From Methanobacteriota archaeon (GTDB lineage Archaea > Thermoplasmatota > Poseidoniia > Poseidoniales > Poseidoniaceae), in contig PSPT01000001.1 of NCBI GenBank assembly GCA_004195635.1, positions 1-64,000 on the forward strand: DNA of 64,000 nucleotides, written 5' to 3'. Below the pieces are notes generated by a model that saw only the letters and a program-made list of their open reading frames with translations, ran no database searches and was not told the origin of the DNA. Position numbers and translations under genes: made by a program. Shown here piece by piece: positions 108-8,412 of this stretch; the first letter of the stretch is position 1; every line of letters begins with the position of its first letter.

Positions 108-653
108 TTATCCCGGTGTTTCAACATTTGGGCCTAAAAAGGCAAGTCGTCTTATTCTCTCATTATCGGCAAAAAACCAATTTATTATTTCATCCGGCAA
201 AGACTCCTGCAAGACATTCCGCAGAACATCTTCCTCCTGTATCATTGAAATCATTTTCATCGTTTGCCGTACCCGCCATCCTTGCAAGTTTTCCCGCAAG
301 GACATTGGAATTTCATGTACTTTCCATCCTGCTTGGCGATAGAGTTGAGCAGTTATTTCATCACTTGTTGCTAAGGCTCCATCGCCATGGTAATCTGTTG
401 CGTGCTTAACCCAATTAGGTGGGTCGTTGATATCTGGGATACAAACAACCTCTATCTCAATACCTTCACTATTTGCCCACGCCCTCACCATTGCAGTTCT
501 TTCTTCCCTTGACCATGGGTTATCTGGGTCCTGTTCTGCTTCAGAAGATCCGATTGCGATTGTAACTTTTCCGAGGCTTGCGGCGCTTTTGACTAGATGC
601 TCATGCCCTTTGTGAAAGGGCTGAAATCGGCCAAGAACCACTATTTTTTCCAT
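108..653 (-). CDS. Nicotinamide-nucleotide adenylyltransferase (archaeal NadM type)
   Basis: This enzyme joins NMN and ATP to give NAD+, the last step of NAD synthesis, in the cytoplasm. The N-terminus holds the nucleotidyltransferase signature GRFQPFHKGH, the ATP-binding HxGH motif preceded by the glycine-rich turn, and the later NPWSREERTAMV segment fits the archaeal NMNAT counterpart of the ISMTxxxR region. Length (181 aa) is usual for archaeal NadM. The ORF track starts at a GTG (662), but the ATG at 653 gives the typical MEKIVVLGRFQPF start and sits 5 nt after the stop of the upstream aminotransferase, so the two genes are probably co-transcribed. TGAGG just before the ATG could serve as a ribosome site. 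FAD- or riboflavin-specific relatives share the fold, but the motif set favours NMN. Confidence 0.88.
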   Translation of the reverse strand: MEKIVVLGRFQPFHKGHEHLVKSAASLGKVTIAIGSSEAEQDPDNPWSREERTAMVRAWANSEGIEIEVVCIPDINDPPNWVKHATDYHGDGALATSDEITAQLYRQAGWKVHEIPMSLRENLQGWRVRQTMKMISMIQEEDVLRNVLQESLPDEIINWFFADNERIRRLAFLGPNVETPG

Positions 654-658
654 ATGCC

Positions 659-1873
659 TCACTCAAAATGCGCTTCGACGTCGATGTTTTCAATTTCCAT
701 TCCAAAGTCAATAAAACATTCAATCATGCGTTTACACCCTTCAATCATTTCGGGAATTGGTGTTTCACCCATAGAGCCAACTCTAAACATCTTACCCTTC
801 ATGTGATCTTGTGCACCGATTACTTGGGTTGAATATTTCTCCATCAACGCGGCCCTCCATTGGTCGTTAATTCCTTCAGGGTATAGAATAGCCGTGACAG
901 TAGAGGATAATTGTTCTTTATCAGCAAATAATTCAAGTCCAATGCTAGAAAATAAAGAACGCACGCCAGCAGCCATTTTTTCGCATCTCTGCCAACGCCC
1001 AGCAAGTGTTTCCTCATCCAAAATTCGCAATGCAGCAACCCACCCAATGGCTAAATTAATGGCCGGTGTCCAAGGGGTTTGATCATCTCCTCCTTTCTTT
1101 AGTGCCGGTAAAATGTCAAGATAGTAAACTGGATTTGCAGTTGGTTTGCTTCTGCGCGCCTTAACTCTCTCAATGAAATCCTCTGAAACTGCTATGGCGG
1201 CAATTCCGCTTGGACCAGCCGTACACTTTTGAGCGCCAACAACCACTGCTTCAGCCTTCCATTTCTTTGGGTGAACAGGTAATCCACCTACGCTGGTAAT
1301 CCCATCGAGTATCAATGAAACGCCATGCTTTGCAGCAATTATTGAAAGTGCCTCTGCATCTTGGACAATTCCTGATGATGTTTCGTTGTGGCAAAATGCA
1401 AGTGCAGTATGCTCTCCCCTTGCAAGTATTTCATCAATTTCATCCAAGTCAAATGCTTTCCCCCATTCACCCTTGAGGTGAGTGACTTCGGCAAATACAT
1501 CTCCAAGAAGAGCAACTCTTTCTCCAAATTTACCATTGGTTGGGACAAGCACCTTCTCATCTTTTGAGAAGCGGTTAGCCATTACCATCTCCATTGCTGC
1601 AGTGCCCGAGCCCGAAACTACAATTATTTTGTATCCATCTTCACCAGTCCAAGATTCCTTTCCTCTTTGGCTTGGGCTTGGGCTCAAATTGAATGTCATT
1701 CTAAGTAAACTATTCAATTCAGCCATAACATCACGATACTCGGTTCCCCTTGCAGTCATCGTTGGGGTTGCCATTGCAGAAAGGGTTGATTGCGCAAGTC
1801 GAACGGGACCCGGGACAAGAAAACAGTCGCCTTGGTATCTTTCCATGAGTAAGGGGGGGTGAACTCGGTTCAT
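659..1873 (-). CDS. Class V PLP-dependent aminotransferase (serine/alanine-glyoxylate type)
   Basis: A fold-type I, class V aminotransferase of about 404 aa, which is normal for the alanine-glyoxylate / serine-pyruvate group (COG0075). Features seen: an N-terminal substrate loop LVPGPVRLAQ, a glycine-rich phosphate-binding SGSGTAAMEM, the cofactor-stacking stretch FCHNETSSGI, the PLP-binding aspartate in LILDGITSVGG, and the Schiff-base lysine in VVGAQKCTAGPSG near residue 215. The exact donor and acceptor cannot be read from sequence; serine-glyoxylate, alanine-glyoxylate or phosphoserine chemistry are possible. ATG at 1873 is preferred to the track's TTG three bases earlier; GGAATTG lies just upstream. 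The internal Met at 1846 is an alternative. It lies 5 nt upstream of the NMN adenylyltransferase on the same strand. Confidence 0.85.
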   Translation of the reverse strand: MNRVHPPLLMERYQGDCFLVPGPVRLAQSTLSAMATPTMTARGTEYRDVMAELNSLLRMTFNLSPSPSQRGKESWTGEDGYKIIVVSGSGTAAMEMVMANRFSKDEKVLVPTNGKFGERVALLGDVFAEVTHLKGEWGKAFDLDEIDEILARGEHTALAFCHNETSSGIVQDAEALSIIAAKHGVSLILDGITSVGGLPVHPKKWKAEAVVVGAQKCTAGPSGIAAIAVSEDFIERVKARRSKPTANPVYYLDILPALKKGGDDQTPWTPAINLAIGWVAALRILDEETLAGRWQRCEKMAAGVRSLFSSIGLELFADKEQLSSTVTAILYPEGINDQWRAALMEKYSTQVIGAQDHMKGKMFRVGSMGETPIPEMIEGCKRMIECFIDFGMEIENIDVEAHFE

Positions 1874-1940
1874 CAATTCCGCGCTTGGAGCAACTCCTTA
1901 ATGGGTGGTATTGATGTTCTATGCCTTCGCCGGTCTATTT

Positions 1941-3839
1941 ATGGCGATTCGGGTCGGGCTGGCAATGCTACAGGGCGCCCGACACGAACATGCTCAGGCA
2001 ATTATTGCTGCATCAAAGCAACTTGATCTAAATATTAAAGTCATTTCATTAAGGACTGCAAGTGATTTGAAAGATGGTATTGATTGCCTTATTTTACCTG
2101 GTGGTGAAACAACGGCAATGCGAATTGCTAGTAAATCTGAACGGCTCTATCCTGCACTCTTTGAGTGGATGAAAGATAATCCACATTCGCCTGTTTTGGG
2201 CACTTGTGCCGGAGCAATTCTAATGTGCCAACTTGGTGAAGAAACAGAGTGCATTGTTGATGCAGTAATAAGTAGAAACTCATATGGTCGGCAAAAGGAA
2301 TCCTTCCAAGCCGATGTTCAAATCAGTGGTTTGACATTTGAAGTGGAAAAAGAATTGTCAAACGAGATGACGCTACCTATTACGCCATTGGATAATTCAT
2401 TCCAGAATATTATTGGTGAGACCTCTCTCAATCATCGTCCATTAATTGTATCCAGCAGTTTGATTGAATCACATGATGAACATATTTTCCCGGCAATATT
2501 TATTCGTGCACCGCGCTTTGGTCAAATAGGTGAAAATGTTAGCGTAATTGCTACAAATGGCGACGAAGTAGTCGGAGTATTAGAGGGGAATAAAATGGCT
2601 CTTACATTTCATCCCGAATTGACTTCAGATTACCGTTTTCATCGCTGGCTCCTGCAAAAAAGCAATGACGGGGATGCCCCCACCCACCGATTGAGCAAGA
2701 TGGACCAAGTACTGCCGATGGCGTCAAGTGTATTCCCCCCAGAAAGAGGCGAAGCCGAGGGTTGTGTTCAGTGTCAAAAGGGTAGCAAGTTAGTACTTTT
2801 TGTGACGGGTGAGTGCCATTGGAAGTGTGATTACTGCCCGCTTTCAGAGAACCGTCGCGAAATTGATATCATGTATGCAAATGAGCGCCCCTGCACTCAA
2901 ATGAGCGAGGTTGTTGAAGAAGCAAGAGCAATGCGGGCAACCGGTACTGGAATCACTGGAGGAGACCCGATGATGGCTCTCGAAAGGACACTTGATGCTT
3001 GCCGCATTTTGAAGTCAGAATTTGGCCCTGACCATCACATCCACATGTATACAAGTTTACCCTTTGATCCACGCCATGCCTCAAGATTAGCGGAGGCTGG
3101 TTTAGATGAAATTCGTTTTCACTTGCTTGATCTAAAGATGGAAAAATATATTGGAACAATGCAAGCATGCACAGAAGCCGGACTTTTCGTTGGAGTGGAA
3201 ATACCTGCAGAGCCGGACAAAGAGGTTGAATTATTTGCTCTTATTGAGGAATTACGCAGCGCCCCAATTCAATTTCTAAATCTCAATGAACTTGAAATCA
3301 CTACTGGTAATCAGGAAAATATGGAAATTAGAGGGTACAATCTGTCCATGGAGATTACTGCAGGTGCTGCGGGAAGTGCGGAACTTGCCATCGCCCTAAA
3401 AAAGCGAGTAAATAATGCCTTGCGGGGCTTGCCAGATAACATAGATAATGCAATCCATTTACCCTTTGGTTTTCATTTAAAGTTCTGCACAGCCAAATTC
3501 AAGGATGCAGGTCAGTTAAGGTCACGCTTTCGCCGGCGGGCAGAAATGTCTATGCGGCCATATGAAGTTCTAACCGAGGATGATACTTTGTGGTTTGGAG
3601 CATTATACTGTCCTCCTGAACATGCACAGGATGATATTGCAGAAATAGCAGAATATTACGAGATTGACAAATCTTGGTTGCATTGGGATGCGAAGAATTT
3701 ACGAATTGAATTGCCTTTATTTTTGGCCGAGGAAATAGCAGAAACTGTTTCAGTGGCAATTGCTGCGGTTGAAGTTCATCCCACGCACGAGCGTTTGGAG
3801 GTTGGATTAACTTGGCTCAATACCCATCGGCCCAAATGA
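1941..3839 (+). CDS. PdxT glutaminase - radical SAM (COG2108-like) fusion protein
   Basis: One uninterrupted frame encodes two enzymes. Residues 1 to about 235 are the class I glutamine amidotransferase PdxT, which feeds ammonia to PdxS for PLP synthesis: LPGGETTAMR, nucleophile Cys89 in GTCAGAI, RNSYGRQKESF, FIRAPRF, and His224/Glu226 in FHPELT. About 45 extra residues sit between the RNSYGRQ strand and FIRAP compared with ordinary PdxT of about 190 aa. Residues about 270-632 form a radical SAM domain with Cys292/Cys296/Cys299 in CHWKCDYC, resembling archaeal COG2108 proteins related to pyruvate formate-lyase activase; its substrate is unknown. A linker of roughly 30 residues joins them. The ATG at 1941 gives the PdxT-like start MAIRVGLAMLQGA; the track start at 1905 adds 12 unlikely residues. 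An internal ATG at 2701 could give a separate radical SAM product. Confidence 0.85.
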   Translation: MAIRVGLAMLQGARHEHAQAIIAASKQLDLNIKVISLRTASDLKDGIDCLILPGGETTAMRIASKSERLYPALFEWMKDNPHSPVLGTCAGAILMCQLGEETECIVDAVISRNSYGRQKESFQADVQISGLTFEVEKELSNEMTLPITPLDNSFQNIIGETSLNHRPLIVSSSLIESHDEHIFPAIFIRAPRFGQIGENVSVIATNGDEVVGVLEGNKMALTFHPELTSDYRFHRWLLQKSNDGDAPTHRLSKMDQVLPMASSVFPPERGEAEGCVQCQKGSKLVLFVTGECHWKCDYCPLSENRREIDIMYANERPCTQMSEVVEEARAMRATGTGITGGDPMMALERTLDACRILKSEFGPDHHIHMYTSLPFDPRHASRLAEAGLDEIRFHLLDLKMEKYIGTMQACTEAGLFVGVEIPAEPDKEVELFALIEELRSAPIQFLNLNELEITTGNQENMEIRGYNLSMEITAGAAGSAELAIALKKRVNNALRGLPDNIDNAIHLPFGFHLKFCTAKFKDAGQLRSRFRRRAEMSMRPYEVLTEDDTLWFGALYCPPEHAQDDIAEIAEYYEIDKSWLHWDAKNLRIELPLFLAEEIAETVSVAIAAVEVHPTHERLEVGLTWLNTHRPK

Positions 3840-3843
3840 TATT

Positions 3844-6800
3844 CTATTGCTGCCAAACTTGCCACTTTTCATCTCCGGAACGGAAATAATTTTTTCCAGA
3901 ATTTTCTGGCCATTGCACCCATTCATAACCGGAGTCATCTTTGGTGCCTCGTAATTCGTAGGGAGGGCTTTGGTCTATTTCATTGTCCATGGAATTTGAA
4001 TCACTGTTTATCTTTTCGCTCTGATTAGAAGCATCAATGATACCTTCTTCCTTTGCAGGCTCCCCATCTTTTTGTTCAGTAGTTTGTGAAGTTGGTGGTA
4101 CTGAAGGCGGAGTTGAGGGGGGTAGGGCCGATGGAGAGTCACCACCGAAATCGGATTCCGGTGGTTTTTTCCGTTCAAATTCGCTCTGGGCAAACTGCTC
4201 TTCATCCTGCCAATCAATATCCTTCTCTTGCCGTTGCATTTGCAAAACTACAATTGAAATCAATATGACAATAAATATTCCTGCTCCCATCAATACCCAA
4301 TCCATTTCCCCTCCGCCTTCGATTTGTTCATCCAATTTTGCAGTTGAGTTGTCAGGGCTGGTTTGATTGACAGTTGTATTAGTAATATTTTGGTTCAATA
4401 CGGAGGTATTGAGATTTGTTGTGTTGAGGAAATCGTTATCAATAAAGGTTTGATTCTCCCATGACTCATTAAGGAAACTATTATTGGTGTAAGATTGGTT
4501 ATTGAATTGGTCGGTATTATTGACAAAGGTATTGTTTACCCATGTGGTGTTATTATGATAGTGATTTTCGTTAACTACGGTTGTTGAATTTCCCGAATCC
4601 CCACCAACTGAGCCAACGGTTTGGATATCTCCCTCAGCGCACCCTGTTTCATCAACAACAGAGTTCGAAGGGGTTATTTGACAGAGGTCAATTAAGTCAT
4701 TTACTCCGTCACCATCATCGTCCCAATCCTCATTGAAGTCATGACAACCATCCTCGTCAAAGTCAACGCTTGGGTTTGTCCTCCATCCGAGTGGACTCCT
4801 TGGACAATTATCATTTACATCTAATACTCCATCGTTATCATCGTCCAAGTCTTCATCAATATCTCTACAACCGTCTCCATCATAGTCGGTAACTGCACCT
4901 GAGGGCCAACGAATTACTCCGCTAGCACAATAATCATCTTGGTCCAAGAAATCATCATCATCATCATTATCGTCTTCGCTAATGTCCTGACATCCATCTC
5001 CATCGTTATCACTTGCACTTCCGGATGTCCAATTTAGCACGCCAGCGGCACAAGCATCATCAACATCAAGGATAGAATCTCCATCGTCATCATTGTCTTC
5101 TCCGGAGTCACGACAGCCATCTCCATCTCTATCTGTTGCGGCTGAACTTTGCCATCCAATTTCGCCGAGAGGACACATGTCAAGTGAATCAAGGACTGAA
5201 TCCGCATCGTCGTCAAGGTCTTCACCCGAATCCTGACAACCATCAGCGTCGTGATCAGTTGAGGCTGAACTTATCCAGCCAGTTGAGCCAATTGGGCATT
5301 GATCGTTACTGTCTTCCAACCCATCATTGTCATCATCAGTATCCTCGCTACTATCTTGGCATCCATCACTATCGTGGTCGGTCAGTGCTCCACTTTGCCA
5401 TCCAATTTCGCCATAAGGGCAAGAATCATTGGAATCCAATATTAAGTCTCCATCATCATCTGGATCACATAAATCTCCTGTGCCGTCCGTATCAAGGTCT
5501 GCTTGATTGTTATTGTATATGCTCGGACAATTATCCAAATTATCTGTGATTTCATCACCATCTTGGTCTGCACTCATTTTTGCAATAAAAATATCGACTC
5601 CACGGGATGTTGTTAGCGTACTTAATCCGGCAGATGTAGTTTCACTAATTTCTCCAGCCACAACAAGAGTTCCATTTGCAGCAGATGCAATTGCACGGGC
5701 ATATGAATAACCTGGATTTTGTCCAACATTGTGTAAATGTGAGGCCCAAGCCCACCCTCCGGCTGATGTTGCAACAGCAACGAAAGCACGGCCATTTGAT
5801 GCCAAGGTGTTCAACCCGACACTTATCGTTCCAGTCTTCATCCCGCTAACTCCAATCGTATTATTTGCCAACAAGGCAATATCGATTATTTCATCTTCGC
5901 TATTTCCTCCAAGTGATATTGCCCATTTCCAAGAACCTGTTGAATTAGCCTTGGCTAAAAAGCCATCTTGGTATCCACCACTTTGGATGCCAATATTTGA
6001 GTTAAAAGTGACTCCTTGAGTGAAATAGCCACCTACATATACATCACCTTGATTACTAATTGCAATAGATTTGGGGTTGAAATATTGATAACCGCTGCTA
6101 TCAATTGGCCATGTGTTGACATATGTTCCATTATCCAATACTTGAATTAATCCTCCATAGCTAAATACGGAAGACGAAGATGACGTGCCGTAAAAACTAC
6201 ATCCACTCTTTCCTCCAAAAATAGCACCATAATTAGGATGTGCTTCCAACGCCAATATTTGACAATTTGAATTTCCGCTTTTATGCACCCAATCCCATCC
6301 GCTTGTGCTTCGCTTAGCAATACATGAACGCACCCCATAACCGGTATTTAAAGCCCCAAATGTGCCATAGGAATAGCAAGAACCTGTGACAAAAACGCTA
6401 CCGTTTGAATCTACTGCTATTTGCGGTTTAGAGTCGTATTGAAGAGGGAGATTTTCAGCATGAGTCCATCCAATTAGTGGATCCCAAATTGCCAAAAAAG
6501 TTTGATATGTATATGTCTCGGTAAGTTTAGTTGAGCCAAACTGAATCCATTGGTCGTATATTCCAACCATATATACAGTGCCATTTGGCGCCACATCCAG
6601 ATCTCCCTGATACCAATCAACATTATTTGAATTAGTCCATTTTTTTGCAAATGGCGCAGTTCCTCCACTAAGCCAATTACCATTAGAATCAGTCCTCGAA
6701 ATAAAATAAGCACCTCCTTCTCCTTCTGGATTATCGCCACCATGTAATATGTGGTTTCCCATTCTTAATGAATGGCTTTGCATCATTCCTCCTACAGTCG

Positions 6801-8412
6801 TTACGCCAGATGTTGCGGAAACATCAAGTCCAAAAACCACATCTTTTCCGGCACCTCCAATACTAGTTTGCCACTGTTGATTATATCCATTGCTGGATGA
6901 ATTTACTATCATTACCGCTGGTGAGTCGGTAATAAGGTCCGCATATGCATTTGTGGATGAAGATTTACCATGACGGTCAAGGATAGTAATCATTTTGCTG
7001 GACTGTTGTTGGTATACTGCCCCTCTGACAGATGTATCATATGCCGTAAAACAATCATTATAATTTGCCGTACTAGCGGAAAGTCTGAGAATTGTTGTAC
7101 TCATGTAATTGTAGTTTGAATTTCCACAACTGCTCCAATAATTAGAACCGTATGACCTAATAGAGTATGTGTTTTCACTCCCGACTAATAGAGTAGAGCC
7201 GGACAAATTTAGGCTTGTTAATTCAGCATGATAGTTAGAATTTCCATTATTGTATGTTGTGCAGTAATATTGCGCCCAGCCAACAGTTCCAGCCGTTGAA
7301 ATTTTTGTTACATAAAAACCGAATGAACCTCCATAGCATCCAGCGGTAACTGCCCCCCATGTCATTGAATTGCCAGTAGTGTATTTCCCGCCAACAAAAG
7401 TATTTCCAATGCTGTCAATAGTGATGTGAGTTGCCTTGTCCTCTTTAGTGTAAATTGGCTTTCTCACCCATTCTACTGCCTGATCTGTAGAGCGTAATAC
7501 TATGCTATCCTTACCAGTACCTCCTCCATGAGATACTGTAGATGAATTAAATTGAAGTGAAGCACTATCAAATTCTCCAACAGCAACAAATTTATTATTT
7601 GGGCCCCATACAATATCGTTTGCTCTTTCATCGCCACTATTGCCATAATGAGTAGACCATGACCAAACTCCGCTATTTGAAATGCCGGCAAAGAACATAT
7701 CTTCACCGCCGTTTGAAGTAAAGTTTTGTAATCCAACTTGGGCAAAGGAGCCATCAAACCAACCTGATAATACTAATCCTCCCGATGAATTCACATCAAC
7801 TCCAGTGACGTTTTCATTTCCATCTCCGGTAACAGTTACAAGAGATTGCCAGCCCCCACTTGAGTTTTGATAATTTGCAATAAAACCATCAAAGCCGCCG
7901 GTATTTGCAATTGTTGTGCTTCCCGCTGAAACTGAGGTGGAATTTGTTGAGCCAACAAGGGTAATCACATTATTTGAATCAAGTACCATGTCCTCAATGA
8001 AGTCATCACCAGTTCCGCCAAAACTGATGCCCCATTTCCAGTTCCCTAAATAATCCAGTTCACCAAAATAAATATCATATCCTCCTTGATTATACAACAT
8101 GGTATTGCCAAGAGTTAAACTACCTCCTGAAAAGATTCCTGCAACAAAACTATTGCCTGCCGCATCAACTGATAGAGCCCTTGAATAGGCAAATCCTGCA
8201 TTTTGATCTTTAGTCGCCCATTCCCAACCGAGTTGGTTTATTGAGCGCGCACCGACATCTTGTTGCTTGACAACAGGCCTTTCAGTTTCAGTTAGGATAT
8301 TTTCTTCATTTTCAACATATGGTGCTTCACCAACTTGTCCGGCGAAAGAAGAAAACACCATTAATGAGAGGATTGCTAGGGTCAATACGGGTTTCAATTG
8401 AGGATACATCAT
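3844..8412 (-). CDS. Giant anchored surface protein: SBBP/beta-propeller-like repeats, TSP3 repeats, sequon stalk
   Basis: A 1,522-residue exported protein. A signal peptide (LTLAILSLMVFSSFAG) is followed by about 900 residues of repeats of the kind 'GGxGxDxxxDxxxDxxGNxxVxG', as in SBBP/beta-propeller proteins. Then come about seven thrombospondin type 3-like calcium-binding modules (about 35 residues, e.g. DHDADGCQDSGEDLDDDAD ending in a CP pair), a roughly 90-residue stalk packed with N-glycosylation sequons, one membrane helix (VLMGAGIFIVILISIVVLQM, about 1372-1392), and a 130-residue Pro/Ser/acidic cytoplasmic tail ending in an aromatic-rich motif (GKNYFRSGDEKWQVWQQ). It is a paralogue in layout of the protein at 22617. 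No enzymatic domain is seen; adhesion or an S-layer-like role is inference. The minus-strand upstream region contains CCAATAAAGTAAAG, a possible TATA element about 35 nt before the ATG. Confidence 0.85.
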   Translation of the reverse strand: MMYPQLKPVLTLAILSLMVFSSFAGQVGEAPYVENEENILTETERPVVKQQDVGARSINQLGWEWATKDQNAGFAYSRALSVDAAGNSFVAGIFSGGSLTLGNTMLYNQGGYDIYFGELDYLGNWKWGISFGGTGDDFIEDMVLDSNNVITLVGSTNSTSVSAGSTTIANTGGFDGFIANYQNSSGGWQSLVTVTGDGNENVTGVDVNSSGGLVLSGWFDGSFAQVGLQNFTSNGGEDMFFAGISNSGVWSWSTHYGNSGDERANDIVWGPNNKFVAVGEFDSASLQFNSSTVSHGGGTGKDSIVLRSTDQAVEWVRKPIYTKEDKATHITIDSIGNTFVGGKYTTGNSMTWGAVTAGCYGGSFGFYVTKISTAGTVGWAQYYCTTYNNGNSNYHAELTSLNLSGSTLLVGSENTYSIRSYGSNYWSSCGNSNYNYMSTTILRLSASTANYNDCFTAYDTSVRGAVYQQQSSKMITILDRHGKSSSTNAYADLITDSPAVMIVNSSSNGYNQQWQTSIGGAGKDVVFGLDVSATSGVTTVGGMMQSHSLRMGNHILHGGDNPEGEGGAYFISRTDSNGNWLSGGTAPFAKKWTNSNNVDWYQGDLDVAPNGTVYMVGIYDQWIQFGSTKLTETYTYQTFLAIWDPLIGWTHAENLPLQYDSKPQIAVDSNGSVFVTGSCYSYGTFGALNTGYGVRSCIAKRSTSGWDWVHKSGNSNCQILALEAHPNYGAIFGGKSGCSFYGTSSSSSVFSYGGLIQVLDNGTYVNTWPIDSSGYQYFNPKSIAISNQGDVYVGGYFTQGVTFNSNIGIQSGGYQDGFLAKANSTGSWKWAISLGGNSEDEIIDIALLANNTIGVSGMKTGTISVGLNTLASNGRAFVAVATSAGGWAWASHLHNVGQNPGYSYARAIASAANGTLVVAGEISETTSAGLSTLTTSRGVDIFIAKMSADQDGDEITDNLDNCPSIYNNNQADLDTDGTGDLCDPDDDGDLILDSNDSCPYGEIGWQSGALTDHDSDGCQDSSEDTDDDNDGLEDSNDQCPIGSTGWISSASTDHDADGCQDSGEDLDDDADSVLDSLDMCPLGEIGWQSSAATDRDGDGCRDSGEDNDDDGDSILDVDDACAAGVLNWTSGSASDNDGDGCQDISEDDNDDDDDFLDQDDYCASGVIRWPSGAVTDYDGDGCRDIDEDLDDDNDGVLDVNDNCPRSPLGWRTNPSVDFDEDGCHDFNEDWDDDGDGVNDLIDLCQITPSNSVVDETGCAEGDIQTVGSVGGDSGNSTTVVNENHYHNNTTWVNNTFVNNTDQFNNQSYTNNSFLNESWENQTFIDNDFLNTTNLNTSVLNQNITNTTVNQTSPDNSTAKLDEQIEGGGEMDWVLMGAGIFIVILISIVVLQMQRQEKDIDWQDEEQFAQSEFERKKPPESDFGGDSPSALPPSTPPSVPPTSQTTEQKDGEPAKEEGIIDASNQSEKINSDSNSMDNEIDQSPPYELRGTKDDSGYEWVQWPENSGKNYFRSGDEKWQVWQQ
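4340..4593 (-). repeat. Sequon-dense stalk with five-residue periodicity (coding repeat)
   Basis: This part of the giant protein lies between the TSP3 modules and the membrane helix. By hand count it holds about 15 N-x-S/T sequons in roughly 90 residues. Many fall in a five-residue rhythm of the type x-N-x-[ST]-[aromatic/aliphatic], for example VNNTF, TNNSF, LNESW, ENQTF. The spacing suggests either a heavily glycosylated rod or a pentapeptide-repeat-like solenoid close to the membrane. Confidence 0.7.

Follow-up and report, generated by a model that had tools for sequence, protein, structure and literature searches.

A single reading frame that joins a PdxT glutaminase to a radical SAM enzyme raises the question of whether the two activities share their chemistry in a new enzyme, or whether two neighbouring genes have simply run together. 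The frame lies in the window analysed here, a stretch of 64,000 nucleotides from contig C25 of a 1.75-Mb MAG in 31 contigs that is 80% complete (nearest named relative: JABIHC010000110.1, Euryarchaeota archaeon isolate SI053_bin59). It runs without interruption on the plus strand from 1941 to 3839, encodes 632 amino acids, and is open from GTG 1905 or ATG 1941 through the TGA at 3837-3839. The genome presumably belongs to Candidatus Poseidoniales (Marine Group II), the order meant below. The frame is probably the product of a lineage-specific in-frame joining of the neighbours pdxT and a radical SAM (rSAM) gene, and not a new B6- or ammonia-using enzyme.

The PdxT (glutaminase) domain occupies 1941-2669 on the plus strand (residues 1-243). 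It scored 123.7 bits against Pfam SNO (PF01174; cut-off 27) and 129.5 bits against TIGR03800 (cut-off 105.55), and its triad Cys89, His224 and Glu226 was invariant in an alignment of 18 PdxT sequences, the last row of which was a Bacillus-type PdxT. A linker of ten residues, GDAPTHRLSK (2670-2699, plus strand), holds the junction, without the stop codon and the 510-524 bp found in the sister species; the peptide stretch across it reads WLLQKSNDGDAPTHRLSKMDQVLPMASS. The radical SAM domain (2700-3839, plus strand; 379 amino acids and the stop) starts at residue 254 of the fusion and scored 45.3 bits against Radical_SAM PF04055 (cut-off 29.5). The cysteines of its CX3CX2C motif, Cys292, Cys296 and Cys299 (rSAM residues 39, 43 and 46), did not vary in two alignments, one of 22 rSAM sequences belonging to the order and one of 16 drawn from the whole phylum. 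The open frame, the profile scores and the invariant residues thus bear out the earlier note, which had placed the PdxT motifs and a CX3CX2C motif in one frame. Judged by these sequence comparisons, each match stands far above chance, and only the missing stop codon is unusual.

Three further cysteines were invariant phylum-wide, at fusion positions 275, 278 and 516 (rSAM 22, 25 and 263), and Cys22 and Cys25, which form a CX2C motif, could together with Cys263 provide a second metal site. In an AlphaFold model of the rSAM part (pLDDT 76.9, pTM 0.65) the top fold matches were radical SAM enzymes (BlsE, MoaA, NifB and viperin), all of them partial, with TM values of 0.3-0.4 by query. The model therefore predicts a radical SAM barrel fold, consistent with membership of the radical SAM enzymes.

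When 319 genomes of the order were searched for the same two-domain architecture, a check proposed in the earlier note, the matches listed included no other uninterrupted full-length PdxT-rSAM frame. In that list, every row spanning both whole domains contained at least one stop, rows covering one domain being uninformative on the junction, and two doubtful rows proved on reading to be separate genes. Matches came from 135 of the 146 genomes in the same family. When the junction was extracted by script, a stop codon ended pdxT in 46 of 46 other genomes, and the rSAM gene mostly followed within tens of bases 3' of pdxT; the gap was about 550 bp in G005, the sister species. Separate ORFs were also seen in five genomes of the order's second family, four of them with the pair overlapping by 4 or by 10 bases and the fifth with a short gap; in that family as a whole, pdxT lies directly upstream of the rSAM gene in every genome with an intact pair among the matches listed. 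In the relatives read, the two genes are thus normally adjacent, co-oriented and separate. These comparisons suggest a pair that is order-wide and a fusion that appears only in this genome. Two loci showed peculiarities of their own: in G025 (locus L053) the gap measured about 1.4 kb, and in L036 (G012) the rSAM gene at about 5466-6600 is split over two frames, through either a frameshift or a sequencing error.

The sister species G005 is the sole other genome of the genus, and its rSAM protein is 97% identical to the one described here. Its pdxT ends in ...QKSNDRVDY followed by a stop, then by an insert and then by the rSAM gene. The insert, of 510-524 bp (L002 2664-3187, contig C163), is missing from the window along with the stop, and the end of our linker is homologous to the sequence that directly precedes the start of the sister's rSAM gene. 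The roughly 524 bases between the aligned pieces have a G+C content of 36.5%, compared with 44% around them, and a 511-base piece of the insert found no match in this genome or in the five other genomes of the family that were searched. This A+T-rich insert also carries an ORF of 111 amino acids with no Pfam match. Either this lineage deleted the spacer, or the ancestor of the genus already lacked the stop and G005 gained the insert.

Since the fusion was found in a single genome, a MAG of 31 contigs, and the junction is 510-524 bases longer in the sister, the organism itself might possess a stop and spacer that were lost in sequencing or assembly. We consider such an artefact unlikely, because the flanks of the missing stretch have no long repeat in common that could be collapsed by a k-mer assembler, the junction carries substitutions of its own that match the roughly 6-7% divergence around it, and the frame is preserved on either side. 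Between the two species, the eight codons before ATG 2700 (APTHRLSK) differ at three nucleotides, all synonymously, so that the encoded residues are identical; with 18 of the 72 possible single changes in these codons synonymous, three of three has a probability of about 0.016 (calculated by hand). This hints faintly that the linker codons were translated before the species split and that G005 gained its insert afterwards, in which case the fusion would predate this one species. Against the sister, the rSAM half has a dN/dS of 0.057, with no amino-acid changes on this branch, seven on that of the sister and five ambiguous, and it is under strong purifying selection between the two species.

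If the sequence is right, the fusion protein would be the main product, as translation of pdxT should run on into the rSAM part where no stop intervenes at the junction. The alternative that internal initiation at ATG 2700 yields a free rSAM protein besides or instead of the fusion draws on the fact that this ATG aligns with a conserved start codon, that of the unfused rSAM genes in relatives. We find it doubtful, given that Shine-Dalgarno-like motifs peak 9-13 nt 5' of the starts sampled in this genome and none occurs in the 20 nt before ATG 2700, and that the spacer that could hold a separate rSAM promoter is gone here. The earlier note had named separate genes in relatives, combined with a strong internal start at 2701, as evidence against a fusion: relatives do have separate genes, and an internal ATG does exist, but it lies at 2700, and without a Shine-Dalgarno sequence it does not stand out as a strong start. 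Upstream of the separate rSAM genes, TTGAAACC or TTCAAACC stands exactly 36 nt before the ATG in six loci (L003, L004, L006, L037, L042 and L052), and the sister (L002) has a TTGAAACC-like element with one mismatch at -36. A role of TTGAAACC as a general promoter found no support, since sampled starts of this genome and of G011 showed no peak of the motif at -36.

A further suggestion of the earlier note was that the fusion might be a radical enzyme using PLP or the ammonia released by PdxT. The first variant, a PLP-dependent rSAM half of the lysine 2,3-aminomutase type, has in its favour that the rSAM part adjoins a gene of PLP synthesis and lies near a class-V aminotransferase gene, a member of a PLP-dependent family. 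The rSAM half nevertheless reached only 12 bits against the KamA model TIGR00238 (cut-off 199.2) and 10.9 bits against the glutamate 2,3-aminomutase model (cut-off 650), and aminomutases were absent both from its sequence matches among solved structures and from the listed 50 best matches by fold. Enzymes of the lysine 2,3-aminomutase type bind PLP through the lysine of a GGGGK motif, and this motif is absent from the rSAM half. A PLP-using aminomutase was accordingly ruled out as a candidate on the profile scores and the missing GGGGK, and we hold this reading to be exceedingly improbable.

Functional coupling through ammonia, in which PdxT would feed the rSAM reaction, could account for a pair that is tightly linked across the order, with genes that overlap in part and are now fused. 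Against this, some near-complete genomes of the phylum keep the rSAM gene although they have neither PdxT nor PdxS: in one family, at least seven genomes that are 96-99% complete (G197, G211, G278, G264, G284, G242 and G253) have rSAM but neither a match to PdxS nor an above-cut-off match to PdxT. Conversely, PdxS occurred without an rSAM match at the threshold used in five f3 genomes (G148, G218, G229, G291 and G296) and four f27 genomes (G188, G191, G194 and G203). In the genomes compared from outside the order, pdxT is either distant from the rSAM gene or located on another contig; this, together with the genomes lacking PdxT and PdxS, indicates that the rSAM enzyme does not need PdxT. Moreover, PdxS is present here as an ordinary ammonia acceptor, and we regard ammonia sharing as highly improbable. 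With rSAM occurring elsewhere without PdxT and PdxS, the KamA models failing and PdxS present, neither form of the suggestion found support.

The search for PdxS in this genome, also proposed in the earlier note, identified an intact gene of 335 amino acids on another contig (C7), which scored 445 bits against NF003215 (cut-off 395) and just under the cut-off of TIGR00343. With PdxS encoded elsewhere in the genome, the PdxT half has its normal partner and acceptor. When native PdxS was isolated from Methanosarcina, PdxT did not accompany it, and weak or transient binding was proposed by the authors (PMC11708016). By analogy, PLP synthesis would not necessarily be blocked by an extension at the C-terminus of PdxT.

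We thus favour the joining of two neighbouring genes, in which the stop codon and spacer of pdxT would have been lost at one junction, leaving the linker of ten residues, so that the ribosome would make one protein of 632 amino acids. The PdxT half would still hydrolyse glutamine, dock on the PdxS encoded elsewhere and feed PLP synthesis, while the rSAM half would independently cleave SAM via the [4Fe-4S] cluster of its CX3CX2C motif, possibly with a second metal site at Cys22, Cys25 and Cys263. The two activities would then be tethered with neither a channel nor shared chemistry, and the joining most likely has little functional consequence.

The genes around pdxT are those of a housekeeping cofactor cluster. 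A class-V aminotransferase gene (659-1876, minus strand) is divergent from pdxT, an arrangement kept in the family, and next to it lies a conserved neighbour, an NMNAT-like nucleotidyltransferase gene (108-662, minus strand); among 20 loci checked in the same family, the former stood beside pdxT in all 20 and the latter in 19. On the other side of the fusion, at 3844-8412 on the minus strand, the translation predicts an apparently secreted or surface protein of 1522 amino acids with Asp-rich (thrombospondin-3-like) repeats and a C-terminal membrane segment. The order-wide adjacency of pdxT and the rSAM gene could, as a counterpoint, mean some functional link. It is conceivable that the fusion is both made and selected, with the PdxT tether placing the rSAM half on the PdxS dodecamer and so linking it to B6 synthesis or ammonia release; this would account for the two genes staying together throughout the order, but we judge it very unlikely. 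If expressed, the frame would be a case of adjacent genes that joined naturally and in frame, observed in one species alone; nothing about it points to a new reaction.

The rSAM family is more interesting than the fusion itself. Of 243 genomes sampled from the whole phylum, 201 contained this unassigned family, which may correspond to COG2108. Our literature search returned no paper on the function of COG2108 rSAM proteins and none on a PdxT-rSAM fusion, and viral contigs, when scanned, yielded no relative. Outside the order, the rSAM neighbours compared included RNA polymerase, OMP decarboxylase, adenylosuccinate lyase, UbiA, an RNA methyltransferase and ThiN, with no one partner common to all. 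The wider lead is an unassigned family of rSAM proteins with six invariant cysteines, found in most genomes of the phylum and linked to pdxT in one order only.

Among known systems, PdxT/Pdx2 (TIGR03800, PF01174; solved structures 2iss, 1q7r and 2ywj) shares with the first half of the fusion the same triad and the GGES/T-type and GTCAG motifs, and its PdxS partner is likewise encoded in this genome. The PdxT part of the fusion differs in having about 50 extra residues (about 130-180) and the C-terminal rSAM domain. The extra stretch, at about 2322-2483 of the window, is long in some genera of the family and missing in others. For the rSAM half, the closest solved-structure sequence matches were MoaA and biotin synthase, with weak E-values, and MoaA (2fb2, 1tv7) was the best across the radical SAM core (E 1.5e-4 with a profile). 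MoaA too carries additional cluster cysteines. The match to the solved structure stops short of the C-terminal part, and with 24.2 bits against a model cut-off of 284 an identity as MoaA was rejected. The closest likeness is to the uncharacterised archaeal radical SAM family of the phylum, with which the rSAM half shares full-length homology and the invariant CX3CX2C, TGGDP, CX2C and Cys263; the difference is that the protein is here joined to the C-terminus of PdxT, whereas there it is encoded by a separate gene.
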